Below, in pieces: positions 4,901 through 60,046 of a stretch of DNA of 64,000 nucleotides. The stretch lies in contig NW_025408667.1 of the NCBI RefSeq assembly GCF_020360975.1, forward strand, positions 8,308,001 to 8,372,000. Direction: 5' to 3'. The translations under genes and the position numbers were made by a program. This DNA is from Hirsutella rhossiliensis. Taxonomy: Eukaryota; Ascomycota; Sordariomycetes; Hypocreales; Ophiocordycipitaceae. Every line of letters starts with the position of its first letter. Within the stretch, counting starts at the first letter, position 1. The notes under the pieces were generated by a model that was not told where the DNA came from, ran no database searches, and was given only the letters and a program-made list of their open reading frames with translations.

Positions 4901-7190
4901 GAAAAAGAAGCTATTAAATTAAATAATCTAAATAAAAAAGGAGACTATAAGGAAGCGGTAGAGCTAGAATACGCTTACCTCCCTATACTTCCTTTTATAT
5001 AAAAAGAAGATCTAAAAGTAGCTTTTTTAGTTAGTCTTTCTATATTAACCCTTAAAAGGGTAAGAAAGGCACCTCTTTTAAAAGATTACCTAGCTGCTTT
5101 TTTATTCTTACTTTAAGAAGTAAAGGAAGGTATAGGGCCTAATATAATTACTAAAGAAGACTAACTACTTTTTTATTTCGATCGTTTTTCTAACTTCTAT
5201 TTAACGCTTATAAAAGATTATTCTTATAGAGTATTTATAGTAGGCCGGCTTTTTAAGCTTCTATTAATAAGGAAGGTATATAAAAGAGACCTCTTAGACC
5301 TACTAGTAAACTAAAAGCAGCTAGAAAAACACCCTTTTAAAGACTAGTTTTTCTAAGCTTAGAAAGACTACCTAGCTTTATATAAAGAGATAGGGTCTTT
5401 TAAAGAGGTCCTTAAAGAGAAAGTAAGAGGAAAATAAGTCCTTAGCTATAAGTAGGTCTTTATCTATAAGAATAATAAATATAGCTTCCTTTAAAAGTAT
5501 AAAGCTTAGCTAGCTATTTATAAGAATTAGTAGGAAAAAGGGGATTTACCTACTAAAGCAACTACCTTAATAAGGATATCTTTTTAAACCCTTATAGCTA
5601 TAGTAATAGAATTCGACCTTAAACTTAATTAGATAGATATAGTTAACGCCTTTATTAACTACTTACTTAAGGAAGAAGAAGTTATTTATATATACCTTTT
5701 ATTAGGCTTTTAATAGCTAGGAAAGGTTCTATAGCTTAGGAAAGCTTTCTATAAACTATAAAGATTACCCTTTCTTTAATAATAATATTTAATAAGTTCC
5801 CTTAGAGCCCTAAGCTTTAAGAAAGTCCCTTAAGAACTATATATAATATAAAAGGGTAAAATTATAGTCTTTTTCTAGATCGATAATATTATCTAGGCCT
5901 ACTTAAAAGAGGAAGAAGTAAATACTAAGAAGGCTATATAAGGCTTATAATAAAGGTATAAGATACTTAGGCTAAGGGAACTAAAGTAGTTTTTAGGGAT
6001 ATAAATCCTTTAGAATAGGTCCTAATAAACTTTCTAGCTTACCTAAGACGCCTATATCGATAAGGTCGTATATAAATTCCTTCTTAATTCCCTTAATAAA
6101 AAGCTTCCTTTTACGCTTATATTAAATAAAAAGCTTTTACCTAATCCGTCCTTTTAAGCTTAAGAGTAAGAGAAATATTAATATTAATAAAAGGAAGGCT
6201 CCTTACCTTTTTTAGCTATTTCTACTAAACTAGATATCTTTTTTATAGTCTCTTAGCTAGGTAGGTATAACTAAAATCCTAGCCCTAGGTACTAAGAAGT
6301 AATAGATAAAGCTATCCTTTATCTTTATTTAATAAGATTATATAGTTTATACTTAAGAGGGTAAGAAAGGAAATAAGCTATTAAAATCTTTTTTTATTTA
6401 AGCGATTTATCTTTTATAAATAATTCCTTAAATAAAAAGAGCTTATAAGAGTATATTATATCCCTTTTTAAAGGAATTATTACTTAAAGAGCTTTAAAGT
6501 AAGCTATTATTATAACTTTTATTATAGAAGTAAAGCTACTAGCTCTTTTAAAAGCGATAAAAGAGGGACTTTCCTTAGCTAGCTACTAATATCTCTATAA
6601 CTATAAATTCCGACCCTATTAGCTATAGAATATAATAATATATAAACTATATAAATACTTATAAATAATAGTAAGCTATTAACCTAGCTATAGTATATTA
6701 ATATCTATTAGTATTAGTTACGCTAAGAGGTTTAAAAGGGACTTATTTCTATTTAATAGGTTTTAATAGTATTAATAAAAGTAAATAGTTTTATAAAGCC
6801 CTTACTAAAGTAAAAGCTAGCTATCTTTTTATAGTAAATTAAGCTAAAAGACGTTTAAGAAAAGCTATCCTTAAAGGCCCGCCTTAAGAGTTTATAAGAG
6901 GAGCTAATAGTATATATAAGAAGGTAATATCTATAGCTAAAGAGAGGAATAAGAACTTATCTTAAAGGAGGGCCCTTAGCTTAATTAAGACTTATTTTTC
7001 TTAAAGGCCCCTTTCTAGGGATTTATCCTAAAAGAAGCCCCCCTTTTTTATAAGACTTAATATTATCCTTAGGCCCCTTTTTCCTAAAGTAGGTTTAAAA
7101 GAGCCTAGGGTTAAAACCCGGATTTCTTAAGTAAGAGATAAGTATAGACTAAGACCTCCTTTATACGCTTACTAGCCTAAAGCTATATTA
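1981..7190 (+). pseudogene. Copia gag-pol polyprotein, RIP-degraded
   Basis: The polyprotein would copy the element RNA into DNA and integrate it. Reading through TAG/TAA as Gln or Trp gives one long frame. The order is gag (about 1990-3200), the gag-pre-integrase motif G-P-L-A-L-Y-K-L (3879-3902), the integrase core start V-M-F-F-I-D-T-F (about 4077-4106), the N-G-G-x-x-R integrase motif near 4316, RT from about 5400 with its metal-binding I-D-N-I-I (for V-D-D-I-I) at 5868-5894, and RNase H to about 6900. Integrase before RT identifies Ty1/Copia rather than Ty3/Gypsy. The catalytic D-to-N change fits a G-to-A RIP change. No intact product is possible. Confidence 0.85.
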
Positions 7191-10798: not shown

Positions 10799-11548
10799 TT
10801 ATTATTATTAAGATTACGCTAGGGACCTAGCTAGAGGTATCTAGAACTTTAATATTAAATAGGAGGGAAAAACTAAAATGCCTAGGGGAAAACCCTCCCC
10901 TCTTTTAGTATAGGTCCGCCTCGAACGAGGTCGTGGTAGTAGTACGTAGGAAATTTACGCCGGCTGCTGTAGGCTCCTCCCGCGAAATCGTATCTCGGCG
11001 CGGGCCCTCTTAGGCCGTAGCCGCTACTATCCCGAGCGGCCGCGGCCCGGGCTCGCTAGCCCGGGCCTAGGGTTATAGGTAGTAGTCTCTCTTCGGGGGC
11101 CCGACTCGCGGGCGCCTCTATTTACCCTAGCTCCCGCGTCGTAGCCGCGTAGCCGCGGTTACGTCGGCTTATTAGTCCGTTAGTTAGTAGGGCAGGTAAT
11201 ATCCGGTTACCGGGCCGGGCGCTAGTATAGGTCGCTCTTAGGTAGGGCCGGCTAATCGAAATTCGGTCGGCCGGCTCCGCTAATCGTAAATCGGTTCCTA
11301 TCTAGCTACGCGACTTCCTAATCGGGGGCGCGGCGGCCTATATTTACCCTCTATCTCGTAGTTACTAATTACGCGCGCCCGGCTCGCGCCTATATATACC
11401 TACCCTCCCCCCCTAGTTCTATACGTGCCTCCTCCTATCCCTTTATTATTTATCTCTTTTATAGGCCTAACTACTACCTCGCTTGCCTTATTTCTATAAC
11501 TCTAGGTCTCCTTAATATCGTATCTAGTTCGCTCGTCGTCGCGTCGCA

Positions 11549-13090
11549 ATATCTAACTAGGAAGCCGACTTAGGTAGTAGCGGCTCGCCTCCTCTAAAAC
11601 CCCCTCCTCGTAAGAAAGTCGCTATAGTAGCGGGATCGGAGCGCTCTATCCTATGTTTTATATATATCGGGCGTCTTACTAGTAAGCTTACCTATAAGTC
11701 CTTCGCCGGCTATTAGAACTAGTCTTATACGTATTAATCCTAGCTTTATCCTTAGTCGGTCTTACTTTTAGTATTTTTACTAACTTTAATAGCCGTAAAG
11801 GCTAAAGCGTATATCGCTTACGCTAACTCTAACTAGTCTTATTATTAAGTAAGTAACCCCTTCCCGCTATAGTACTATCTAAGTTTAATGCTAATCTAAG
11901 TTTTAGATTACCTTCGAAGGCGAGGAGGCCGCTAGTACCTTCTACTAGGCATAGTCCGAGGTCGATAGCCCTTCCCTTATTAAGGGTTCGGTATAGGAGC
12001 GCTTTTATCGTGCTACTTTAAAAACTTATATTCGCGCTAGTTAGAAGGCCCCCGCCGCTAAGGGTAAGGGCGCGTTAGGCGAGTCCGCCCTTAGTCTAGC
12101 TATAGTCGCTAAGAATATAGAGACGCTCGCGTTAGCCTTTACCCGTTTTATAGACGATACCCGCTATATATACGAGTCCCTAGAAAAGCACCTAGGTAAG
12201 TTTAGCGACGCTATTAAGACCTTAGCCTAGGTTAGGCCTAAGTCGCTCTTAGTCGCTTAGAAGACTCTTACGGCGGTTAACGATCTCGCTAACTATTTCT
12301 ATCTTATTACTAGCGACGGCCCTAACGTAGAGGATAGCGGCTTTAATCTTACTAGTCTTACTAGGCCTATTCCGGCCTTAATCCCTATCGATAAAGGGAA
12401 GGGCAAAGGTAAGGGTAAGGTAGCAGCCGCGTCTAAGGCCCTATCTAAGGCTAAGGCTAAGGTATCTATACCTATGGCCGTCGCGGAGCCGGCTCGGGAG
12501 CTAACCGCGTCTCCCTCCGACGCTAAGCTATAGCCCGGTAGTTCTCCTAGCGCCGAGCCTACCTTAAAGCGTCCCCGTCTTACGTCGCCTACCGATCCTA
12601 TTAACGCTCCCGACTTCGTCTAGTAGCGTCTTTATAGCTATCGCGGTTCGGTCCTAGCTAAGATTATTACTAGTCTTAACCTCGATTAGATCTATAGTTA
12701 TAGTATAGGCTATAGCGAACGCCTCTATACCGCCGCTAGTATAGGTCCTGCCTTAGTAAAGACCCCGGTCGTTACTCTATCTCGTAAGCTAGCCGTCTAG
12801 GCTAGCTCCGGTTCGGGTTTAGGGTTAGGTCCGTTCGGTCGTCGTTAGGGTTCTCGTAGCGGTAGTAGTCCCCGCACTCCTCGTAAGCCTTAGGTTACTC
12901 CCTCCTATACTCCGCGTACTACCCTAGGGGGGTCTTATTATTCCCGCCGCGATAACGAGGCGGATATTACTACCGATAAGCTAGGCTAGGGTTATAATTT
13001 AGGGGGGGCTAGTTATTAGCTCTATCTTAGTTCGGTTCTAGGTCGGGTCTTATTCGGTTACGGTCTTTTAGTAATAGGTCTTATTCTATA
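11549..13090 (+). pseudogene. Antisense accessory ORF in the LINE 3' region
   Basis: I do not recognise this protein. On the strand opposite to the LINE RT, exon 1 (11549-11848, exactly 100 codons) starts at ATA, probably a RIPed ATG. A 52-nt intron with GTAAGT donor and GCTAATC branch-like site ends in AAG (11849-11900). Exon 2 continues in frame for more than 1.1 kb with only TAG/TAA stops. Visible features are a Pro/Lys/Arg-rich N-terminus, an acidic G-E-E-A-A stretch early in exon 2, and a K-G-K-G-K-G-K and Lys/Ala-rich basic segment near 12400-12460. The opposite strand is closed there. The end is uncertain; it lies tail-to-tail with ORF2. Confidence 0.65.
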
Positions 13091-13329
13091 GCTATTAAGG
13101 TTAGTTTAGTTAAGTTATATTAGTTTTATTCGGTCTATAGTTTAATCGGCGAGGTTTACGCTTAGTCTAGGTCTAGTTTAGTTAAAGCTATAGTCCTATA
13201 ATTATAAGTCCTCTTCCTTTCTAGGTCGCCCTAGTAAGGGAGGTAGTTAGCTAGGGTGGTCCTAGTCGGGGCCGCTCTATCCCTAGCGCGACCCTGGTTT
13301 TATTATCCGGTATATCTATATATAGCCTC

Positions 13330-16300
13330 TAAGCTAGGTTAAACTAGCGGAGCCTACCTAAGTAGAGGAACTATTACGCTAGCGGCGCCGTAGTCTTTTT
13401 CCCTTAGAGGCCCGCTCTTACGTTACCTATATCCTAGGCCCGTATTAAGAGGGACTCCCTCGCCTCTACTATTAGTAGATAGTCGATTATTATATAGTAG
13501 ATAGTATCCTATCTTTATCTATAGGTATATATTAGCGAAACTACGCTAGGGACTTATCGGTTAAAGAGGAAGTCGTTAAGCCCGATCTTTCCTATACGTA
13601 TCTAGGTAATTACCGTGCTAATATACTTAGGAAGGCCCTCGTAACGGTCTAGCGTTATCGCTTTATCGAACCGAGGCAGGAAGTCGGCGGGGTAGAGGGT
13701 AGTCTAGTATTATCGGATCGCGTCTTCCCTAGCATTCTATTAAGCGGCCTATTCCTCGTTTAGCCTTTTAAGCGACTTAGCTTTATCTAGGAGGTCGTTT
13801 ATTCCTATCTAGCTCTAGACCCCCTTTATCTCCTCCGCGAGGGGGGGTCTACCTAGAGGTAGTACCGTTAGGGGTCTGCCCTCTCTTTAGCGTCGCCTCC
13901 TTTTAAGTATGCCCGCGACCGCGTTAAACGCGCGTTAGATTTAGCCTAGGAGCCCTAAGTCTTCTAGCCTCTAAAGGGTATCTATTATTCTTTAGTTTAG
14001 GTAAAGGTCGATTAAGGGCACCTATGCCTCTACTTTAACTTAGTAGACTAAAGTCGCGTAGTAGGCACCCGTTACTACCCGGAGGTAGGCTAACTAGTCC
14101 TAGGTAAGGTCCCGCGCGATTCTACGTAGTTTCCCCCCTATAGGCGTTATCTTATAAAATATAACTATAGCGTAAGAGATTAAGGACTAGATTACCTTAC
14201 TATAGACTTCCCTAGCGCGTAGTAGGGTATAGCCCTACGTAGACGCCGCGAGCCCGGTTAGGGCTATAGTCTAGCGCTTTAACTTCGCTCGGAGTTATTT
14301 TAGGTACGCCTTCTAGCGTAGTTTCTAGTATACCTAAACCCCTAGTAAGCGGGCCTCTTAGACCGGGGTTACTACGTCGGCCCTAAGGTATACCGGCGTC
14401 GTTATCGCTTATCTCTTTTATATAAAGTATATTAATTCGCTCTTCGATAGTTTAAAAGTAACCGCGAACTTAGTCGCCTATTCTACGTATACCCTCTAGG
14501 CTTCCTCTAAGCGTGCTACCATAGTAGCCTCGTTAGGTCTAATACTAACTATATTTATATTATCGGCGAAGCTAACGGTATAAATACTATATATCGTACT
14601 AAGCCTTTTATATAGGGGGGTTATATAGTATAGAAATAGGATCGGGGATAAGAGGGAGCTTTAAGGGACTCCTATCGGTACTTAAGTTAGTTCTAAGGTC
14701 CTCCTATTAAAGTAAAGGGTCGATCTCCTATCGCTTATAAAGCTCTATATTAAGCTTATAAGCTACCTAGGGTATCCCTTAAGCTCTAGTTCCCTTATAA
14801 GCTTATTATAGTTAACTATATTAAATACGCCTTTAATATCTAGCTATAGGAATAATACGATGCCTCTCTAGGCCTACGTCGCGCGTACTAGTTCTATTAC
14901 TAGTAGGATCGCCGCCTCCGTAAAGCGTTCCCTCTTATTCCCTATTTATCCGTCTAGTAGGATGCCGTTCGCCTCCGCTGCTCCCGCAATCCTCTAGGCT
15001 AGTATCTACTCGAGTACTTTTCCTACTATAGGTAGGAGGGAGATTAGTCTCTAACCCCCTACCGTACGGTAAGCGTCCGGCCTCTTACCTAGCTTCTAGA
15101 TAACTACTATATTCGCGCTATAGAACCGACCTAGGAAATATAAGAGTTAGGTATAGGCGTTAAAGATTATAGCTAGTCGCTAGACTAGGGCTAGGCCGTA
15201 CTTCTTAATAAACCCTAAGGGGACGCCGTTTAGACCCGCCGCTTTCTAGCTTACTATCTTACCTAGCGCCCCTACGACGTCGGCTAGCTAGATCTATTAG
15301 TTAACTATAAGGGTCGCCTTAGCTATAGGCTAAGGTAGCCCTTAGGTTATGCCGGCCTCTAGTAGGAAGAACTTAGCGGCTAGTAGCTAGGCCTTCCCTT
15401 CGAAGGTTTCTATTAGTTAGTCTTCGCCTTCCTTAACTAGCGGTAGGATATAGGTCGGTTCTAGTAATAGCCTACTACGGAGTCTTACCTACCTCTTTAT
15501 ATTCTAGAGCTTAGTATTATCGGCGCTAAATTCCTTTAAGAACTCGCGCTAGTAGGCCCTCCTCGCCTCGCGGACGGTCCGCTTCTAAGCTATAGACGCC
15601 TTATATAAGTCTTCCTAGTTCGCCTTATTTCTTTCCCGCCTATACTTCCTCCTTACCCTCTTAGCCTCCCTTATCGCCCTCCCTACCTCTAAGGTAAACT
15701 ATACGTTGCCTCTAAGTAATACTCGCCCTTAGCGTAGAACTATAGCTATCGCGATCTACGCTAAAGTAGTAAAGATATAGTCTAGGTCCTTATTAATATC
15801 TTTAGGCGTCTAGAGCATTAGCTAGTATAGTCCTAGCCGGGATATAGTCTCGGCTTTAACTAGCTTTACTTCCGCTTCTTTCTACCTTAGGGCCGGTTTA
15901 GGTACCTAGGCCTAGGTATCGACCTATAGTATAATAGTTTAAGGGATATAGTCTAACCCGGTTAGGTCTAGGTCGGGCCCGGTATACCGTGTTCTAGTCT
16001 CTAGCGTTGCCTAAGCTAGGTTAATAGTACTATCCCTTTAGCCGTAGAAGAATCTTATATACTCCCCTCTTAGGGTAGTAAGTTTAAGTTATAGCCTTAT
16101 CGCCTCCTATATAAGTTATATTACGCTATCTAAGGTTCTATTATATCTATCCTAGAGCGGGTAATAGATATTAAAGTCCCTTACTATTACTATAGGGTGC
16201 TCCGGTTTAATTACGCTTAGGTCGCGTAGCGCTCCTACCCTCGCGGCCCCCGGTAGTAAGTAAATCGCCTATAGTTTAGTACTATCCCCGAAAATCACCT

Positions 16301-16600
16301 CGCTCTAGTCTAGTCTAGACTAGGGCGACTAAGTTCCTAGCCCGAGCCTTTTATATATATATAGCGCGTACCTCCCCTCCTTATAGACTAGGCTATAGGG
16401 CGCCGCTCTAGGGGCCGCCTCGGCATAGCTTCTACTTCCTATAGTACTATTAGGTTAAAGCCGGCCCGGTAGTAAAGCGCTAACTAAGCTAGCTTATATC
16501 TCTTTTATATATTCTAGAATAGTACTTTTAGTTATATATAAGTAGGGTTAGGGTAAAGGGGGTCGTTTATATAGGGAGGGAGGCGCTCTATCTCTTAGCG
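13330..16600 (-). pseudogene. LINE ORF2: endonuclease, reverse transcriptase, C-terminal domain
   Basis: The protein would nick the target and prime reverse transcription there. Read on the minus strand with RIP stops as Gln/Trp, it starts with an AP-type endonuclease (N-terminal L-x-V-L-x-x-N-I near 16510-16540, then L-I-V-L-Q-E). The conserved [G]-D-F-N-I-Y-Y-P follows at 16158-16181. The RT has G-V-P-x-[G]-S-x-L-S-P near 14650-14690 and the catalytic F-A-D-[D/N] at 14559-14570. A segment typical of Tad-like LINE C-termini follows, reading A-S-T-x-G and later G-K-I-G-L (about 13570). The second catalytic Asp reads Asn, a G-to-A change of RIP type. Confidence 0.85.
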
Positions 16601-16699
16601 CTTCTCTATCTACTATACCTACGAATATCGTTTATACTTAGTTCGGCCTCCCTAGCCTTACTAGCCGGCGGGTATCTTAAGCTCGACCTCTTATCCCGG

Positions 16700-17980
16700 C
16701 GCGGTCTACCTAGTCCCCGCTTCCGGACTACGGTCGATTTAGGAACGCCCTAGGTTTCGATAGTAGGGAGCACCTATTACTCGGCGTACGTTTAGGTATT
16801 CGCAAACCGTTAAGGTCGTCGCGGGTAGTTTTCCCTTGCCTTTTCCTAGGCTTTATTCGCTATAGGGTAGGTCTAGGTCTACGAAGGGTAGTCCCCTTAG
16901 TATAAGATATAGTTATAGGGGATTTCGCCCCTCTTAGCCCTATATTCGTTCTCGCCTCTATCGTATACCGTGCTCCTATATCGGCTATAGAGTTATATCG
17001 ATATATATTACCTAGCGATATAGCCGTATCTATAGTAGTTATAGTACCTCTATAGTTAGACCGACTTATTATAGGGTTTATATCGGAAGATCTATACTTC
17101 GAGGACTAGGCTTAGGTCGTAGAGCCTATTAGCCTCCTTTAAGCTACCGACCCTAATAAGTATAGTTATCGCCGTCGATATCTTAGATCGGGGGCGTAGC
17201 GCCTAGGCCTAGAGGACCTTAACTTTATTCGCCTCTATAATCTCGTAAAGTAATCGCTCCCTATCTACTATCGCTACCCTTAAGGGGACGTTCTTTACGA
17301 CTACCGTATATACGCGGCGGGAGATCGTAGCCTCCGGTCTAAATACCGCCTTAACCTAGCCTTAGTCCCTCTAATAGGCTCTCGCCGCGGTATTAAATAT
17401 AACCGCGATATCTCCGCTTTAGAGGCGCCTCGCCGCTATAGCGCTCGTGGCTTTTAGGGCCGTGTTTACCGCCTTTATTATATCCTTTAGTTCGCGGCTT
17501 AGGATTTTAAGCGGTGCCCCGGTAGAGACTACGATAATCTTACGTTTATAGCGCGGTAAGACCTATTTTACCGTAGCTTTATATTAGGTCGGTCCCTTAG
17601 TCTCGGCTACGACCGCGGCCTAGGTTCGCTTAGGGCCCCCCGGGCCTAAAGCGATGCCTAGGCAGAGTTCTTCCTTAACTACCTCCTTAATTATATCCTA
17701 GATTATCGTCTTAAAGCTCTCGTCCGCGCGGAGTACCGCCGACGATACGCTACTAGCGCGGCTCTTTGCCCTAGAGAGCCGTTCGACTACTACCTATACC
17801 CTACTAAACTATACGCTTAGGATAAAGCCCGCGAGTTCGTTGTATGCTGCTTTTTCTATAAGGTCGCTCGGCGCCTAGGCCGGTATCGCATCGCTACTTT
17901 AGGTTTATTAACTCGCTCTATCGGGGTATATAAATTCGGGTAGCGTCTCTTCGCGCTACGCGCTTTAATCGAGCCCGGTA
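16700..17980 (-). pseudogene. LINE ORF1 (nucleic-acid-binding, CCHC knuckle)
   Basis: The frame upstream of ORF2 encodes the LINE RNA-binding protein. A central segment, about 17130-17560, reads like the RNA-binding fold of fungal Tad ORF1 proteins. At about 16985-17065 lies a CCHC-type knuckle whose Cys and His codons have become Tyr, as RIP makes TGY and CAY codons TAY. The spacing Y-x2-Y-x4-Y-x4-Y matches C-x2-C-x4-H-x4-C. The start is not resolved. Confidence 0.7.
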
Positions 17981-18142
17981 CGTCGAGGGCCGCTACTACG
18001 TCTACCTACCCCTCGGCCTTAGCGTAGTATCGTTACTAAGGGTAATTAATGCTACTAAATTAATTCCTAGTATTAGTTAGTATTTTAGTCGCGATACGCA
18101 CCCGCTATAAGCGTATATCGGTTTCGCGAGAAGGTTTTTTTT

Positions 18143-32599: not shown

Positions 32600-32856
32600 T
32601 ATAAGGGAATACGTATTATAGTACGATTAGTTAGGTAGTAGAGATAGCTAGAGGTACTACGCTATATATATTATATTCTCCTTATCGTAAGACTAAAGCT
32701 TACGAGAAGAGGGATTTCTCCTCTTTAGTCGGAGTAGCAAGTAGTCTATAATATACAAGCGGGGTAGGCATGATTCCCTACTAATACCCTACCGATATAT
32801 TAGTACTATATACCTAAGTACTTTATTAGCCTATACCTCTTAGTAGCGCTCTTATA
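32600..32856 (-). repeat. Gypsy-3a 3' LTR
   Basis: A 257-bp LTR aligned without gaps to 40150-40406 and 57839-58095. In plus orientation it starts TATAAGGGAATA and ends CGCTCTTATA. Confidence 0.92.
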
Positions 32857-33237
32857 ATTATCTCCTCTCTTATATAGACGTCTTAGCTATATCTTTAATA
32901 TATATTACTTTCGCTACGCTATATATATTTAGTTAGGAAGAGAGGTAGTTTCGGTTATATATCGCGTATATACGCCTATATAAGTATACGTTAGTCTATG
33001 CTCTATAACGTTAATAGTTATTATACTAGCGGTTACCGCTAAGTAACTATTATAGTATTACCTATATATCGGCCGCGTAACTATAATATAAAGAGCGTAT
33101 ATATATCTCTCTTACTTCTTCTATTTTCTTTTCTTTTTTAACTCTTCCGCTTATAATTACTATAGAGTTTTACGCCTTTTTTTATTAATCCCTTATACCT
33201 TTTTATATTACTTTTTATCGACGATTTATTAATAATA

Positions 33238-34806
33238 ATACCTTCTACGCTAAAAAAGATAAAGAACTATAACGCTGATTTCCTACGCCGTATATAAGAG
33301 TAAGTAGCGGCGGGTTCGCCCTTAAAGCGTAAGCGATTAGCTTAGAAGTCTTATAGCGACGCTAGTTCCCCCTTAGCAAAGAAAGCTAAGAAAAGTATAG
33401 GGGAATCTTAGTCCTAGGAGACTTTTAGTCTAAGACCTAACGTTAGTAAGGGTCGTGCCCCCGTTACCCTACTAAGTGCCCTAACTCTAATTACTAATAA
33501 GCCTACCTCTATAGGCCCGGAAACTTATAAGTTTATTACCCCTATTAGCGATATTAATACTAACGAGGAGATCGTACTTAGGCGCTCCTAAGTAAGTGCC
33601 GATAACCTAGCTACTTTGTCTTAATAGGGCGGCTCTAGCTAATAAAAGATTATTGCCTAGGCCGCTCCTTAGAATAAGTAGGCTAATATTAACGATAAGG
33701 CCTAGCTAAACGAGGGCTAAGACTATCCGATACCTAGCCGAATAAGGGCTAAGATAACGATAATAGTAATAACGAAGATAGCTACGATCCGACTCCTCCT
33801 ACTAACGAACCTAAGAACGGCGGCGCTAAAGACAAGGGCACCTAAGCGGTGGTATAAGGCGGTCGCGCTCTTATAAAGAAGTGTACCTAATCTAAGGCTA
33901 AAGCCCGCCCGGTTAGGGCCTATAGGGTTATCCCTCGTAAGCTTTAGTATATATATTATTTTAGGACGGTCGTTAAGGAGTATAGTACGACCGAGCCTAA
34001 GCCTATTAAGGTGCTCTCGATTAGCTATATTTTCTTAGGGATTTCCTCGACGCGCTATAAGTAGTACTATAAATATACCGCGACCTATAACTAGGTAAGT
34101 TTCCCTTTAACTTTAAATATTATAATTAATAAGCTAATCTTTCTTAAGGCTGCTACTCTTATATTTAGTAACTAGGCCGATATAGTCGCTATCGTTAAGC
34201 ACCTATATAAGCTTAATAAGCTAAAGACCGGTAACGAGGATACTAAGGATAATAGCTTAGACGCGGGCGTGCTTATTTTCGAGGAGGCTAATTAGCGCCG
34301 TCTCGCTATTATAGTATAGTATTTAGCTAAGGCTTTCGACGCTACTAAGACAGCCTATCGTAAGTCCTTTAGGACTATAAGTATATAAAAGTCTATTATC
34401 GTAAGTTTTATCTAACCCTTTTATTAGCGACCGCCTAACGATATACTAAGTTAAGTATACTAACTACTATATACTAATTAATAAGCGCTATAAGCTTATT
34501 ATTTGCCTTAACCCTATGCCCTTATTCGATATCGCCTATATAAGCCTAGAGTACCGGGCCTAGGAATCCTAGTTAAAACTCTACCTTATTAACGGCGATA
34601 TAAGCTATACTTCGTAGTAATACGCCTTACTATTTACTAAGGCCGAGGTAAGTACTATACTAATAAAGATAGGTCTCGACGCGGAGGATAAGGAAAGAGC
34701 GGAGGATAGGGTAGTTTTAGTATTTCTAAAGGTATTTAGTATAGTAGAGGGGGCGCCTTAGTTAGTTCCTACTACGCCGGCGAAAAAGAAGGGTAGTTAA
34801 AAGTAA
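33238..34806 (+). pseudogene. Antisense accessory gene of Gypsy-3a (3 exons)
   Basis: I do not recognise this protein. The ORF opposes gag-pol and starts at ATA, a probable RIPed ATG. Exon 1 is 33238-34094 (286 codons once a 1-bp deletion near 33730, absent from copy b, is allowed for). Intron 1 is 34095-34148 (54 nt, GTAAGT, GCTAATC, AAG), exon 2 is 34149-34400 (84 codons), intron 2 is 34401-34455 (55 nt, GTAAGT, CCTAACG, AAG) and exon 3 is 34456-34806 (117 codons, stop TAA). The product would have 486 residues. It has a Lys/Arg-rich N-terminus (K-R-K-R and A-K-K-A-K-K), an Asn/Asp-rich low-complexity region and a basic C-terminus resembling a nuclear localisation signal. Confidence 0.75.
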
Positions 34807-35084
34807 TAGATAGGTCTTATCTTTCTTTTATTTAGCTACGACTATCCTTCTCTCCTTTATTATTAGGGCCTTAGTAGAGTTATAGTTTAGTTTTATTTTC
34901 CTTAATAATATTTAATAGGTAGTATAAATAGTTTTCCCTATTTTCTTATTTTACTATTTTATATATAGTTATAGGATATTCGGGCGTGCTAATACGTTAA
35001 TAAGTTAGTAGCGATTTAGTAGGGATTTATTACCGATTTAGTAGCGTCTCCCTATACTAATAGGTTTCCCTACCTTACTTAGTC
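34807..35084. other. Spacer between the antisense gene and pol in Gypsy-3a
   Basis: A 280-bp stretch separates the two convergent stop regions. It is A+T-rich and near-identical in copy b. It may hold the 3' ends of both transcripts; I see no clear polyadenylation signal. Confidence 0.4.
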
Positions 35085-38000
35085 TTACGCCTCTTTTTCC
35101 CGGTTAAGCGAGCAATATATTCTTTAATAAGGTCTTAGCTATTTACTATATCTTTAGCCTCGACCTATTAGTTATACTTAGCTAGCTATTCTTTCTATTT
35201 AATAAGGAAAAAGGTATCGCCCTTAGATCTCTTTTAGTCTTTAATCTCTTAGACTTCCTATTCGCCTTTATTATCCTTTAAGTTTAATATTAGTAGGGTT
35301 TCGCTATCTTTATAGGTGCCTTTACGCTCCTTCTATAGCTCTAAGAGACTAATATAGAAAACGTTATAGAGGCGTAAGTACTTCTTAAGGAGTATAAGAC
35401 GATATACTTACTTTCTAATAGCTTATAGGACCCGAAACGGTCTAATATACTTAGGTAAGAGTTTTCTTTTTTCGTCCTTAAGGTATAAGTTCTTTATCGA
35501 TAATACTATAAGGTCTCCTACTTTTAGTATAAGCGGTTAGTGCCTTAAATCGTAGTATTTTACTTACGATTTAATAGCCTTTCCTTAGTATTCCTTAAGC
35601 CTCTTTTATAGCTCCTATAGCCTAGTAACTCTTTCTCTTACTTTAGGTACCCCCCTTTAAATAATATCGTCCTTAGTATTAATATAGAAGTTTAGTTAGT
35701 AACCTATTAACGCTTTATTAAGTAATAACCTAGTTATCGCGTTCTTTATATTATTATATATAAATTAAGTAATACGTAAAAGTAACGCTTAGTTAGTTTA
35801 TTCTAAGTTAGTAAAGTATCTTAAGTAGTGCTATACGGCTTAGTTTATTTATTCTATTTACCTATCGGTTTATAGGTAAAATACTATCGATAGCCTATAT
35901 TTTACTTATAAGATAAAATAGAGATCTAACTAGAACTTACTTATAAATAAGGACCCTTTATCTAAGATAATGCCTTTTAAAGGTCTATATATTAATTTAA
36001 CTTAGTAATAAAATAATTCTACTAGCTCTAGGGCTATTATTATCTTAAAGATAGGAAAGAAGAGGTAATACTTAGTATATCGGTCTACGATTACTAAGAT
36101 TATATTAACGTTTCGTCTATTATACTATACTTTAAGTAGACCTATAGTAAAGTCTATTAATAATTCTTCCTATAGTTATATAGGATATAGTAACGATTAT
36201 ATAGTACTATAGGGGCGATACCTCTTAGATACTATACCTTAATATACTAAGTATAACTAAATATATTTATTTACGTCTTTCGTTATTCTATCTTAGTAGA
36301 AGTTCCTCGCTAGTAGTTTATTAGTATATCGGGAGCTAAAGTATCCTATTAACGGATTATTATAAAAGAGCTATATTAGCTCTTACCGTAAGGCTACCTT
36401 TAAAGGTACTACGATACGACCTTTCTATAGTAGTAGTCTATCTAGGCGTACTAACTAGAAACCCTTCCCTTTTAAGAAGTCTTCGGTCTCCTTTAGCCTA
36501 CTAATTACTACGTTAACCGACTAAGTACGTTTTAGTAACTCTAGTAACGGTTCTAAAACTTCTACTATATAAACCTTTATATAATAGGCCGCTTCTTTAG
36601 CGGTTTTCCTTAAGAGTAACTATTTATAACTAGCTCTCTCTTTAGCCTAATCGGCTAATCGTTTAGGTCTCGCGCCTAAATTATTATAGTTTCGCTATAG
36701 ATAAGCTTATATATTTTCCTTATATAAAGGCACTTTACTACGCTTATATTAACTCGAGGTAAAGTATCTCTTTACCTATAAAAACTCCTTATTATTTCTC
36801 TATATAGATACGGTATTAATAGTAGCTAGCTTCGCTTATAGCTCTAGTAATAGTTTTATAGATAGGGGCTTCTCGCCCTTATATCTAGGTATTCTTAATA
36901 GCGCGTTTGCTAGGTTAGATTTACCTATATAATACTTAATTATAAAGTTAAATAGTACTAAATATATATACTATCTTACTTACCTCCTATTTAGGGAGGT
37001 CTAGTATATAAACGTCTAAAGGTTATAGTAGTCCGATAATACCTTTACTTTATACGCTACCCCTTTAACGTAATATCGCTAGTATTTAAATAACTTAACG
37101 ATAGCGAAGAGTTCTTAGTCTAGAATACTATAATTAAGTTCGGCTCTAGTAAACTTCCTTAACTAAAATATAATCGGATAATAACGCCTTTCGTTATTAA
37201 GTTAAGAGATAATCCTTACTATTGCGAATTACGATATATCTATTTTAATACGAATACGTCTTTCTAGATCGTAATATCGGAGGAGTAGGGCTCCTTAAAA
37301 AGTATCCTTAAGAGCCTAAAACGCTGCCCTTTTAGTAAGGTTTAGCTCTATACTCCTTAGCTTCTTTTTATTCTTACTCCCCTTTAGTAATATAGTTAGG
37401 GGCGCTATAACTCCTAAGTACTTATATATAAATCGTTAGTAAAAATTATAGAACCTAAGGAAAACCTAAATATTATAGTAGGTTATAGGTTTAGGCTATT
37501 AAGCTATTGCCTCTACCCGTTAAGGGTCTATTAATACCCTATCGATAGATAATATAAACCTAAGGAACTTAACTAACTATTAATAAAAGATATACTTCGA
37601 TAGTTTTATATAGAGCTCTATAGCCCTTAGCCTTTCTATTACTTATCCTAAGTATTTAGTATATTCTTCTCTCGTTTTAGAGTATATAAGGATATCGTTA
37701 AGGTAGACTATATAGATTATATCTATAAGCCCCTCGAGCGCCTAATAAATATAGCTCTAAAACGTAGCTAGTACGTTAGTAAGTCTAAAGGGTATTACTA
37801 GGTATTCGAAATATCTATAACGCGTTCGGAAAGCGGTCTTTTATTTATCTCCTTCCTAAATTTAAATACGTTAATATATATTCTATATATTAATCTTAGA
37901 AAAATACTTAGCTCCTTAATAGCGGTTAATAATCTCTAAAATAAGGGGTAAAGGGTACCGATTCTTTTATATAACCTAGTTAAGTCCTCGGTAGTTTATA

Positions 38001-39980
38001 TATAGCCGTAAAGTACTATCCTTTTTTAGAACGAAAAGGATAAGCGCCCTAGCTAGGCTCTTTAACTCCTAGATTATTTTCCTTTTTATTATATCTTAGA
38101 TCTAATCGCGTAATACTTAGAGTTCCCTTTATAATAAAGGGTAAATCGGTCTATAAAAAGGTTCTATATTAAGGATTAAATTAATAAAGTAATCCGTTCC
38201 CTTTCTAGCTAGTAATAAATCGGATTTATTAGCTAAGAAGGTATCTTTAAACTAGTAGAGAGTTAATAGGATTTCGGCCTATTCTTCCTATAAAATCCCT
38301 TTATCTTTATCTTTATTTAGTAGCGGGATTAGCTTAGGATTAAGCGCTATTATATATACCCTTACTTCGTTCTTATATTCCTAAAGGAATTTATAAGGAT
38401 TTTATAAGGTTTCGCTGCTTAGTTAATACTTAAACTACTACTATCGTTTCTATAGGATAATATAAATATATTTATCCTTTAAGGTAGTAACTAATAAAAG
38501 GATTAGTACTTAATCGTTTAGCGTTAACTTATCGGTACTAATATAAAAATAAGTAATTATCTTTTCGGTGCCCCTTATATATATTATATAGAGCGGTACT
38601 AACTATACTCTATACTCCCTTACCTTACTATTATTAAGCCTTAATAACTTAGGGTATAATAGCGCTACTTATAGTAATCCTTACTATTAAGTAAAGTATA
38701 CGTCTATAAGGTTAACGGTACTATAAGTATCTAAGTATATAGGGACTTTAATAGGGTTTCGCCTTAATATCGTTATAAGAGTTTTACCTAACTATCCTAT
38801 AGGTATTAAGTTTACTAAGAGAGAGGCGTTTACCCCAATATCTTACCTTTTCCCTATTTTATAGTATTAAGTCTAAGAGTCTTTACTAGGGTTTTTACCT
38901 TTAGAGAATTAGTATATTCTATAGATAGGTATCCCGGCTTATTATATTAGAAATATATAATTCCTAATTAAGTAAAAGATCCTCTTCCTTAATAACGTCC
39001 CTTAGTTTAGCCCTTAGTAAGTATATCGCTAGCTTACTAATTATCGGTCGAATTAATAGTATTTCCTTAACGATTTAGCCTAGCTTATCGGCCTCTTTAA
39101 TTCCTTCCCCTATATATACCGCCTTAAGGTATAGCACTACTTTTATTCCTAGTTCCTTTAAGGGTAGAAGTAGTATTAATACGTCGCCTCTTATTAGTAG
39201 TAGTATCCTAATATCGTTAGGCGACTTATATAAGCTCTTCCTATTAGTAGGTATAGATAGGTATTAAATAAAGGTTAATTTAGTCCTAAAGTTATAGCTC
39301 TAGCTTAGCGAAAAACGTAAGAGTACGCGCCTTTTTTAATAGGTATTCGAAATACCTCTTTAAGGAGTTAAGGTATAAGCTAAACTTTAAGGGGGACTAG
39401 CCTTCTTATTAATAAGCCTCCTTTAATTACGTCGCTAATAGTATCTCCTTATTTATAGTATCCTTAATTAAGATAAGTATCTATTCCTTAAAGTATACTT
39501 AATCTATACTATATTTAGTTCGGTTAATCGGCGTTTATTCTTTAAGGTATCGGCGCTATCTCGCTTTATAGTCGCTATATATATAATCTACCGCGTAGAG
39601 GATCTTCGTTTTATCGCGACGAAAGTATCTAGGCGCTACCCTAAAGGCGTCCTTTAGATCGTAAGTTTAGTCTAGACGTTTCTATATATTAGTAGGTTAG
39701 GATAATTAAGCGATATTTTTAATCTTAACCTTACTACCGCGACTGCCGTCCGATTTAAGGGAGTAGGACTATCGACGCTTCCCTAAACGGATAGCGATAG
39801 CACTAGCGCGTTTAGCAATTTCCTCCTCTAATTATATAACGCGATCTTATAGGCGTTTCGTCTCCTCTAGCTCTTTAACGCGCGCTTATAGGGCTATAAG
39901 CTTTTCCTTACGAGATAGTTATCTTACGCTTATAGGTAGCGATATCTTTAATATAGTTATAACGCCGTCTATAGTAGGGG
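35085..39980 (-). pseudogene. Gypsy-3a gag-pol polyprotein with chromodomain
   Basis: Read on the minus strand, the capsid region lies at about 39700-39200, with the L-K-F-x3-L-x-x-L motif of fungal Gypsy gag proteins near 39380. RT has Y-L-[D/N]-D-I-L-I-Y at 37684-37716. The integrase (about 36450-35650) shows the zinc-binding segment, the L-V-I-V-D-R-x-T-K core near 36080-36110 and the Q-T-D-x-Q-x-E motif near 35850. A chromodomain follows at about 35240-35110, with F-L-I-K-[W]-K and a distal I-K-E-Y. All stops fit RIP. Its 3' end faces the antisense gene. Confidence 0.85.
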
Positions 39981-40149
39981 TCTATTCCGAGGATATATCT
40001 TCCTATTCTTTATCTCCTAAGTAGATACTTAATATACGTAACGAAGAGGCCTTAACTAGTTAACTATTACGTCGCGCTATAGGAGCGTTATATAGTCTTC
40101 TCTAAGTAGCTATCTCTACTAGGTAACTAAAAAGGGAAGCTTTAAAAAT

Positions 40150-40406
40150 TATAAGGGAATATATATTACGGTACGATTAGTTAGGTAGTAGAGATAGCTA
40201 GAGGTACTACGCTATATATATTATATTCTCCTCGTTATAAGATTAAAGCTTATAAGAAGAGGGATTTCTCCTCTTTAGTTAGAGTAGCGAGTAGTCTATA
40301 ATATATAAGCGGGGTAGGCATAATTCCCTGCCGATACCCTGCTAATATATTAGTACTACGTACCTAAGTGCTTTATTAGCCCGTACCTCTTAGTAGCGCT
40401 CTTATA
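40150..40406 (-). repeat. Gypsy-3a 5' LTR
   Basis: A 257-bp partner of 32600-32856; differences are of C/T and G/A type. Confidence 0.92.
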
Positions 40407-43433: not shown

Positions 43434-44760
43434 ATGGAAAACATCAATTCCTTTGCAGTGGAATCGTGGACATACTCTATTCTCAGCACTGTCTTGATTA
43501 TTGGTAGGATCGCTCTGCGATGGAGGACCCAGTCGTTTTCCGGCTTGTCCGGCGACGACTTTCTCATGGCTGCTGCAATCGTAGGCCGCCGCCCCCTCCC
43601 TCCGGGCAACGCCCCGGATAACAATTAATTTTCGCTCTCACACTTACATGGCACAAACAGCCGCTTTCCATGGCCGGAACCGCGGCGTCGTACATTATCG
43701 AAGCAGAAATGCACGGCTTGGCGAATAACGGGTACGAGACCTCAGGCGCGGCTGTCAATAAAGCCATGTGCAACTCGGGATACTAAATCAACATACAGCC
43801 TGACTCCCGAGCAACGCAATGCCCTAGATCCGGACAGCGACGAGTGGCGCTTAAGGGTCAAGGGCTCCCAGACCCATCTCGCCGGCTGGCTTCTCTATAC
43901 GTCCCTGCTCTGGATACTCAAGCTGTGCTGGCTCTTCTACTATAGACGACTCGGTGATCGTGTAGATCGCATGACTCTCAAGGTTACTCTCGGATTTTCA
44001 TTTTGCGCCGTTACCTTCCTTGCGGTCTTGTTTACCATCCTATTTGGCTGCTGGCCCGTTTCAAAGCACTGGCAAATCAACCCCGATCCTGGGAGTATGC
44101 CGCCGCGTCTGAACTCTATGTAACTATTAGCGGGAAGATCGCTAACGCATGTTGACCTAGACTTCTGCTATCCGGCTATATCCGAACTCCAGGCGTGGAC
44201 CGTGGTATGCACTAACCTAACGACCGACTTATACATCATGACGATCCCCATCCCAGTAAGTGCAACTGTTTCTAGGCCAAGCTGGTAGCTCTAACGGATG
44301 ACGGTAGATGATTTGGCGTGCTCGCATCTCGATGATGAAGAAATTCGGTCTCGGCACCATGTTCTGTGGTGGACTCATCACTATCGCTTTCGGCGCCGCC
44401 CGATGTAGCCTGATTCTACAGGACGACTCTAAATCTGGAGAATCTGCCGCACGGTGGTCGGACCGTGAGACCTTTGTTGCCATCATCCTCACCAACGTCC
44501 CCGTTCTCTTTCCGCTTATACGTCAATATTTCCGGCATACTAAGAACGTCTCTTACCGTGGCTATAACGGCACCAACGGCGATTCAATCCGGTCCCGCAG
44601 CAAAGGCGGTGTCGTCTTAGAGCTCCCAACGTTATCTGGGGAGAGCGCCGCGACCGCGAGAAATAAGCCAAAGAGCCAGAAAAGCCTACCCACCTTTACG
44701 CGGTATGGGCATAATGAGTCAGAGGAAGCAATCATCGGGATCCCAGCCCACGCGACGTAA
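43434..44760 (+). CDS. PTH11-like/SAT4 rhodopsin-domain integral membrane protein
   Basis: This is probably a seven-helix plasma-membrane protein of the fungal rhodopsin-domain (SAT4, PTH11-like) family, whose members include GPCR-like receptors; no ligand can be inferred. Exons are 43434-43580, 43661-43731, 43799-44094, 44161-44255 and 44308-44760, giving 353 residues with no stop or frameshift. Introns of 80, 67, 66 and 52 nt are GT-AG, with branch-like TACTAAA, GCTAAC and TCTAAC in introns 2 to 4. Seven hydrophobic segments are seen. Family signatures are D-D-F-L near residue 43, E-x-H-G-L-A-N-N-G, L-T-P-E-Q, W-Q-I-N-P-D-P-G, T-D-L-Y-I-M-x-I-P-x-P and R-E-T-F-V-A. The C-terminal tail is polar and Lys/Ser-rich. 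It is the only intact host-type gene here. Confidence 0.88.
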
Positions 44761-58476: not shown

Positions 58477-60046
58477 ATACCTTTTACGCTAAAGAAGATA
58501 AAGAACTATAACGCCGATTTCCTACGCTATATATAAGAGTAGGTAGCGGCGGGTTTGCCCTTAAAGTATAAGCGATCGGCCTAGAAGTCTTATAGCGACG
58601 CTAGTTCCCCTTTAGTAAAGAAAGCTAAGAAAGGTATAAGGGAATCCTAGTCTTAAGAGACTTTTAGTCTAAGACCTAACGTTAGCGAGGGTCGTGCCCC
58701 TATTACCCTACTAAGTACCCTAACTCCGACTACTAATAAGCCTACCTCTATAGGCCTAGAAACTTATAAGTCTATTACCCTTATTAGCGATATTAATACT
58801 AGCGAGGAGATTATACCTAGGCGCTCCTAGGTAAGTGCTAATAACCCGGCTACTCTATCTCGATAGGGCGGCTTTAGCTAATAAGAGATTATCGCCTAGG
58901 CCGCTCCTTAAAATAAGTAGGCCGATATTAATAACGAGGCTTAGCTAAATAAGGGCTAAGACTATCTTAATACTTAGCCGAATAAGGGCTAAGATAACGA
59001 TAATAGTAATAACGGACACGGCCGCGATTTAACTCCTCCTACCGATAAACCTAAGAACGGCGGCGCTAGAGATAAGGGCACCTAAGCGGCGGTACGAGGC
59101 GGTCGCGCTCCTATAAAGAAGCGTACCCGATCTAAGGCTAAAGCCCGCTTAGTTAGGGCTTATAGGGTTATCCCTTATAAGCTTTAATATATATATTATT
59201 TTAAGATAGTTATTAAGGAGTATAGTATAACCGAGCCTAAGCCTATTAAAGTGCTCTCGATTAGCTATATTTTCTTAGGGGTTTCCTTAACGCGCTATAA
59301 GTAGTGCTATAGATATACTATAACCTATAACTAGGTAAGTTTCCCCTTAACTTTAAATATTACGATTAATAAGCTAATCTTTCTTAAGGCCGCTACTTTT
59401 ATATCTAGTAACTAAGCTAATATAGTCGCTATCGTTAAGTACCTACGCGAGCTTAATAAGCTAAAGACTAGTAATAAGGATGCTAAGGACGATAGCTCGG
59501 ACGCGGGCGTGCTTATTTTCGAGGAGGCTAATCGGCGCCGTCTCGCTATTATAGTATAGTATTTAGCTAAGGCTTTCGACGCCGCTAAGACGGCCTATTA
59601 TAAGTCCTTTAGGACTATAGGTATATAAAAGTCTACTATTATAAGTTTTATCCGACCCTTTTATTAGCAACCGCTTAACGATATACTAAGTTAAGCGTGC
59701 CGACTACCGTACGCTAATTAATAAGCGCCGCGAGCTTATTATTCGCCTTAACCCCGCGCCCTTATTCGATATCGCCTATATAAGCCTAGAGTACTAGGCC
59801 TAGGAATCCCGGTTAAAACTCTACTTTATCGACGGCGATATAAGCTATACTTCGTAGTAATACGCCTTATTATTTACTAAGGCCGAGGTAAGTACCGTAC
59901 TAATAGAGATAGGTCTTAATATAGAGGATAAGGAAGGAGCGGAGGATAAGGTAGTTCCGGTATTTCTAGAGGTATTTAGTATAGTAAAGGGGGCGCCTTA
60001 GTTAGTTCCCACTATACCGGCGAAGAAAAGGGGTAGTCGGAAGTAA
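58477..60046 (+). pseudogene. Antisense accessory gene of Gypsy-3b (3 exons)
   Basis: Structure matches copy a: exon 1 58477-59334 (858 nt, 286 codons, no deletion), intron 1 59335-59388 (54 nt, GTAAGT), exon 2 59389-59640 (84 codons), intron 2 59641-59695 (55 nt) and exon 3 59696-60046 (117 codons, stop TAA). The intron 2 donor reads ATAAGT where copy a has GTAAGT; the lost G follows a T, as a RIP change would give. In-frame stops are TAG/TAA only. Agreement of all exon lengths in multiples of three in both copies is the main support. Function is unknown; the C-terminus is basic (A-K-K-R-G-S-R-K). Confidence 0.78.

Follow-up and report, generated by a model that had tools for sequence, protein, structure and literature searches.

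Remnant of a probable twice-spliced antisense gene in a RIP-mutated chromovirus of Hirsutella rhossiliensis

Between pol and the 3' LTR of a retroelement in the genome of Hirsutella rhossiliensis lies a region which, on the evidence of its sequence, is very probably a past-coding, spliced gene running antisense to gag-pol. The description favoured here, and considered quite likely, is that a genuine gene for an accessory protein, belonging to a fungal Ty3/gypsy chromovirus, survives as a remnant destroyed by RIP; it would have been transcribed in antisense from a promoter of its own and spliced twice, with a product of nuclear role. A formerly coding, two-intron antisense gene had been proposed in an earlier note on this DNA, and this proposal is borne out by splice signals, by a codon model, by the layout of an un-mutated relative (L079) and by a public protein (P0123). 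The value of these results lies in that relative and in what appears to be a spliced product of it.

The element and its genomic setting

The window, i.e. the whole stretch of 64,000 nucleotides analysed, belongs to an assembly of 81.8 Mb in 40 contigs. Its element extends over ca. 32600–40406, with LTRs of 257 bp and with gag-pol on the minus strand (Table 1). RT, RNase H and integrase domains occur in this order and a chromodomain ends pol, and the window element is, as read from its sequence, a fungal-type Ty3/gypsy chromovirus; the Chromo match at the end of pol, obtained in the less mutated copy L034, has an E value of 0.0015 and is below the Pfam gathering score. The earlier note had placed the antisense frame between pol and the 3' LTR, and correctly so: RT, RNase H and SH3 are all matched on the minus strand, where the zinc domain of integrase has a weak match as well.

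Mutation by RIP has been strong throughout the family. Across the gene region of 31 copies, CA makes up 0.24%, TG 0.58% and TA 16.4% of dinucleotides. CpG sites differ between family copies, reading either CG or TA with both bases changed (for example window 34400–34401 versus 59640–59641), as if a CpG had been hit once and the resulting CA or TG was then nearly always RIP-mutated.

Two further features of the window lie apart from the element. An open 150-codon frame at 44308–44760 weakly matches the end of the Fungal rhodopsin domain (Fung_rhodopsin, E 5e-6, just under the gathering score) and is probably an exon of a host gene. The stretch 10900–18000 (GC 0.43–0.50) resembles a gene island, yet its CA+TG is just 0.8% and it lacks any ORF of 75 codons; it may be a repeat that is rich in GC and mutated by RIP, and not a group of host genes.

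Table 1. Features of the element and of its antisense gene in the window.
Feature	Position	Strand	Remarks
3' LTR	32600..32856	-	89.5% match to 40150-40406; element sense = minus
CT-rich stretch	33097..33216	+	TATATATA near its beginning; a short way upstream of start codon
Exon 1	33238..34094	+	286 codons in most copies; 857 nt in window copy 1
Cys/Tyr cluster, residues 238-284	33948..34088	+	spacing like C-x2-C...C-x9-C-x2-C-x6-C
Intron 1	34095..34148	+	54 nt, phase 0, GTAAGT...GCTAAT...AG
Exon 2	34149..34400	+	84 codons
Intron 2	34401..34455	+	55 nt, phase 0
Exon 3	34456..34806	+	117 codons, stop included
Pol stop in window copy	35077-35075	-	
3' part of pol	35075..38029	-	domain matches
Chromodomain	about 35258-35112	-	scored in copy L034
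SH3	35518-35339	-	domain match in pol
Integrase H2C2 zinc domain	36394-36260	-	E 0.0027, below its cut-off
RNase H	37333-36959	-	domain match in pol
RT	38029-37562	-	domain match in pol
5' LTR	40150..40406	-	pairs with 32600-32856
Second window copy of antisense gene	58477..60046	+	element from LTR 57838, past window end

Layout, splice signals and coding tests

On the plus strand, antisense to gag-pol, the gene (33238–34806) fits between the 3' LTR and position 35075, where pol ends; this is the place of the antisense additional ORFs (aORF-3R) of LTR retrotransposons. In the earlier note, exons of 286, 84 and 117 codons separated by introns of 54 and 55 nt had been described for both window copies. 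This layout stands for the second copy, and the full 1461 spliced nt are present in 28 of 31 copies, that one included; window copy 1 has a 1-nt deletion near 33727 which leaves an exon 1 of 857 nt, and the statement that exon lengths are multiples of three in both copies is thus wrong for it.

The start codon at 33238 reads ATG in 7 of the 31 copies and ATA in the other 24, while the stop codon is TAA in all of them. Intron 1 shows the donor GTAAGT and the branch-like site GCTAAT, the latter as previously described, in 31/31 copies and the acceptor AG in 30/31. GTAAGT had been claimed as donor for both introns, which holds in every copy only for the first; intron 2 has its acceptor AG in 31/31 copies, its donor being GTAAGT in 16/31 and ATAAGT in 15/31 (window copy 2 among the latter). 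A scan of 2.1 kb counted six GTAAGT in all on the plus strand. In addition, intron 1 is a multiple of three with no in-frame stop and could therefore be coding, if the splice signals are due to chance. Upstream of the start codon, the CT fraction in five 24-nt windows of 33097–33216 is 0.71, 0.88, 0.59, 0.79 and 0.80 (mean), and this stretch may be regarded as a candidate promoter or transcript leader of the antisense gene.

The antisense gene could be aligned in 53 of the 54 genome copies read, all of them heavily RIP-mutated; L054 was left out, with just its last part aligned, and L031 matches to 1533 of 1570. An LTR stands beside the gene in all 34 copies whose stretch reached it. With a 5.5-kb query, 27 of 28 matches span LTR, gene and pol, for the best 27 of 827 candidates scored and with a query which itself contained the gene, so that gene-less copies could rank lower. 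No intact gene copy occurs among the 152 matches listed, all of which have internal stops (150 of 523 candidates scored), and the spliced frame contains 26–38 stops per copy in the 31 copies, final stop included. The copies represent one very recent burst, with 53 transversion columns in 53 copies of 1.57 kb, and a proper dN/dS among them is impossible because the burst is single and young. A 33-nt (11-codon) unit in exon 1 varies in number with the frame kept, two copies having one unit fewer and one copy one extra (L057, L062 and L060). A divergent subfamily comprising L031–L033 was considered and rejected, these being members of the same family that are more mutated. L033 has terminal repeats in inverted arrangement at 2425–2911, and at L025 (C15:641823 region) a piece of pol in inverted orientation stands back to back with an element.

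Stop counts were rejected as coding evidence, since RIP can make every TAA and TAG and TGA hardly survives; the previous argument from the presence of RIP-type stops only carries almost no weight for the same reason. In exon 1, the mean is 14.3 stops in one minus-strand frame versus 21.9 in the claimed frame. Codon usage was instead evaluated with a model that had learned from pol in ten copies whose antisense gene is richer in GC; it replaced an earlier model derived from the window's own heavily mutated pol, which was too weak. As a control, 10 of 10 held-out pol chunks were rightly framed by the mean, each in 8–10 of 10 copies. Run on 30 copies (L001 omitted for its deletion), the model gave top rank to the claimed frame in 30/30 copies both for the complete spliced ORF and for exon 3, in 28/30 for exon 2, and in 26/30 for the last third of exon 1 (codons 193–286, where the claimed frame is +2, the coordinate reference being one base short). 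For codons 1–96 and 97–192 the claimed frame came first in just 2/30 and 9/30 copies, respectively.

Transversions, which are not made by RIP, provide a further test. Of the exonic columns, 28 of 49 lie at codon position 3 versus 17.1–19.6 expected (P 0.0016–0.0066, base- or context-matched draws), 21 of the 28 being in exon 1, and singleton transversions alone give 25 of 44 (P 0.0022–0.0148). Synonymous changes in the claimed frame number 15 versus 8.6 expected (P 0.015); one minus-strand frame likewise has 15 versus 9.4 expected (P 0.045), and the other four frames have no synonymous excess. The pol control, comprising 26 of 29 copies (L048, L055 and L059 dropped as misaligned), shows 19, 12 and 16 of 47 transversions at positions 1, 2 and 3, i.e. 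no position-3 excess. Since pol itself shows none, selection may not be the cause of the excess seen in the antisense gene, and the transversion test is suggestive only.

An un-mutated relative, with a product that appears to be spliced

The protein of the window gene found nothing in the protein collection, PDB or Pfam, and nothing in IMG/VR or in scans of bacterial and archaeal genomes; IMG/VR likewise gave nothing with pol or with the L079-type proteins. A pol piece had 4776 relatives among 7982 scored candidates of the protein collection, with fungal names among the 120 matches listed. The collection thus includes fungi, and the antisense protein is still without a match there. Scanning bacterial and archaeal genomes with the pol alignment yielded 31 loci, evidently contaminants in these records. 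Among 13 loci with ORFs inspected, a long antisense ORF after pol is found in L079 and L082 only, with shorter ones (117–212 codons) in L064, L068, L071 and L078. A Cys-motif scan of the 31 loci gave an antisense match in L079 only, plus a low-complexity sense match in L068; L082 is one Cys short and hence missed by the pattern.

L079 and L082 (proteins P0122 and P0121, respectively) are located in MAG records JAPYPR010000043.1 and NYXK01000161.1, as eukaryotic-type LTR elements inside bacterial assemblies (Erythrobacter and Deltaproteobacteria MAGs), and the antisense protein P0121 is entered as a bacterial hypothetical protein. In L079 the two terminal repeats (3–183 and 6880–7060) are identical, gag contains a zinc knuckle, and SH3 and Chromo are present in pol; an intact antisense ORF of 431 codons (5469–6761) lies between pol and the 3' LTR. 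It is presumably an un-mutated chromovirus of a fungal host which contaminates a bacterial assembly, and apparently a recent one in view of its identical LTRs. The antisense ORF of L082, in which gag is broken, is 94.6% alike over 368 residues. Both contain introns of 51 and 50 nt in phase 0, with GTAAGT donors and GCTAAC and GCTAAT branch sites. L079 may harbor a further 5' intron, together with TATATAAA upstream of its ATG.

Two JGI proteins, P0123 and P0124, are relatives of these antisense products. P0123, a public protein of 204 residues from a 1205-bp JGI contig with its N-terminus missing, matches the L082 product in two blocks, the second 96% identical, with both introns absent. Its joints on L082 fall at GTAAGT...GCTAAC...AG (51 nt) and GTAAGT...GCTAAT...AG (50 nt), and the frame is changed by the second splice in L082, as it is in the window gene. 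P0123 is most simply read as the cDNA of an antisense transcript after splicing, although it could also stem from a retrocopy that lacks introns or from an in-silico gene model with the splices built in. Because the un-mutated relative shares the place and phase of the introns, and the public protein is without them, the reading of the window gene as spliced in antisense is supported. The reasoning of the earlier note that antisense introns survive reverse transcription of the sense RNA likewise gains from this two-intron relative and from P0123. AlphaFold gave only a poor model for P0123 (mean pLDDT 59, pTM 0.30), in which helices at 46–65, 71–91 and 111–161 are the best part.

For the L079-type family, no Pfam match rose above a cut-off, and nothing in PDB had an E value below 0.52. 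The Zn2Cys6 clusters of fungal transcription factors have the spacing C-x2-C-x6-C-x5-12-C-x2-C-x6-8-C; the first half of the present motif is longer, and no Pfam Zn cluster was matched. A host gene at G000:C3:7582030-7582368 (locus L095, 1030–1368 and on) is GC-rich and not RIP-depleted, the 3-kb stretch having a GC of 0.60, and is a possible host counterpart or source of the L079-type antisense protein.

Several traits are common to the window gene and the L079/L082 gene: a chromovirus setting, an antisense position between pol and the 3' LTR, a basic N-terminal region and two short phase-0 introns with GTAAGT donors (50–55 nt across both families). Intron 1 follows two codons past C-x2-C-x6-C in L079/L082 and, where the Cys/Tyr cluster of the window gene stops two codons ahead of it, past Y-x2-C/Y-x6-Y; the intron position is thus the same, and of the three motif positions one is Cys in 26/53 copies and two are Tyr in 53/53. 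Across the 53 copies, thirteen columns hold Tyr alone, or Tyr and Cys but neither Arg nor His; 9 of these columns lie within residues 238–284, and Cys is kept at two of these positions in 3/53 and 26/53 copies. The set omits columns with stops (such as 229), yet keeps 277, which has a stop in one copy. With random placement, 5 of 200000 draws were as clustered and none reproduced the motif at the intron; the uniform null is generous, however, folded regions being richer in such residues, and the motif was picked after seeing the data. On the other hand, the L079/L082 product is shorter (exon 2 of 111 versus 84 codons, exon 3 of 49 versus 117), the middle portion of the Cys motif is spaced differently, and no similarity between the two was detected by blastp or by hhalign (probability 0.1%). 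The window gene is not classed as a member of the L079 family, because similarity is undetected and the window family is RIP-damaged; common descent of the two genes is nevertheless somewhat favoured.

Interpretation and comparison with known antisense genes

As a remnant of an accessory gene, the region would have been transcribed from its own promoter, situated between the 3' LTR and its ATG, into an RNA running against gag-pol and spliced twice. Its introns would outlast retrotransposition, as reverse transcriptase copies the genomic RNA of the other strand. In the predicted product of ca. 486 residues, the N-terminal half would be disordered and contain basic clusters that resemble nuclear-localisation signals; a Cys cluster, which may bind zinc, would come just ahead of intron 1, and the C-terminal part is probably helical and perhaps dimerising. 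It is likely a nuclear Cys-cluster accessory protein, and most likely it would act in the nucleus by binding DNA or chromatin, regulating the transcription of the element or aiding the integration complex. By analogy with plant antisense ORFs, as covered in reviews (PMC7264820, PMC11963269), the protein may regulate the element.

A coding region could also have arisen by capture of a host gene with ordinary host introns, as cargo useless to the element. The host gene at C3:7582030 is open and GC-rich and of like design (Cys motif, disordered acidic N-terminus), with an E value of 0.018 to P0124, and in the richest copy the GC of the antisense gene is above that of pol (0.50 versus 0.36). However, this match is weak, being one of 2 matches among 3 candidates with P0124 as query, and the own-genome search with P0123 gave nothing at E 1. 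The antisense place and the two phase-0 introns, moreover, recur in the L079-type family with a pol just 36% identical to the RIP-damaged window pol, which suggests long service and not chance cargo, and capture is considered unlikely.

The window family is known from genomic sequence alone, and antisense RNAs of LTR elements are treated as dsRNA sources in PMC7264820, both of which would suit a region that gave an antisense regulatory RNA triggering RNA silencing, with the frame incidental or secondary. Such a role does not need a start, a stop, phase-0 introns or frame-matched codon usage, nor the open 431-codon frame of the relative with its apparently spliced public product, and is therefore judged improbable. 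Finally, the region might never have been a gene and might combine RIP compositional periodicity with chance splice-like motifs: RIP makes TAA/TAG and GTAAGT-like strings common, as the six GTAAGT on the plus strand illustrate, and the exon 1 stop counts do not favour the claimed frame. The ATG at the exact start in 7/31 copies and a codon model right on 10/10 pol controls speak against such an artefact, already strained by the same layout in the un-mutated L079, and it can be given very little credence.

The accessory gene thus favoured makes plain in what way a retroelement can keep a gene with introns. Introns at matching places within a fungal lineage would offer a clean marker for the transcription of such antisense genes in existing RNA data, where spliced means antisense, and L079 supplies an undamaged protein for study.

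Boty-like elements of Botrytis cinerea carry an antisense gene, brtn, reportedly described by Zhao et al. 2011 (Virology 417:248). The earlier note knew of no antisense gene in a fungal chromovirus, which does not hold in view of brtn, and the window gene is not the first of its kind. The gene is cited in PMC7264820, PMC8365987 and PMC4227169; the last describes a Boty-like element with brtn-106 whose adjacent gag-pol carries a CHROMO domain, so that brtn resembles the window gene in being an extra gene, antisense to a gag-pol with CHROMO, of a fungal Ty3/gypsy element. In addition, a Monilinia transcript similar to truncated Pol and BRTN is reported in PMC5987419. Searches of the protein collection with the window gene and the L079-type proteins brought up no protein named Botrytis.

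Antisense accessory genes of LTR elements have been described mostly from plants, with function unknown (PMC7264820). Maize Grande gene23, rice RIRE2 and Silene Retand likewise carry them between pol and the 3' LTR, and for gene23 an own promoter and a nuclear product are reported (PMC7264820, PMC11963269). Retand, however, belongs to a non-chromovirus lineage and has a TRP28 domain, whereas the window gene is without a Pfam domain. The word antisense is absent from PMC3248453 and the word intron from PMC11963269, PMC9409477 offered nothing relevant, and no report of conserved introns in such antisense genes was found in the literature searched, a search not aimed at introns and covering few subscription papers.

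It is conceivable, though tentative and held at somewhat short of an even chance, that a spliced antisense gene of great age, passed on vertically, is common to fungal chromoviruses in widely separate hosts and codes for a nuclear Cys-cluster/helical regulator; it would perhaps have been exchanged with a host gene family, with brtn, the window gene and the L079 gene as members. The fungal antisense gene would then be a parallel of antisense regulators such as HBZ of HTLV-1, which is spliced. Like the product proposed here, to which no homology is expected, HBZ comes from the antisense strand of a reverse-transcribing element and is a regulatory protein of the nucleus (PMC11963269).
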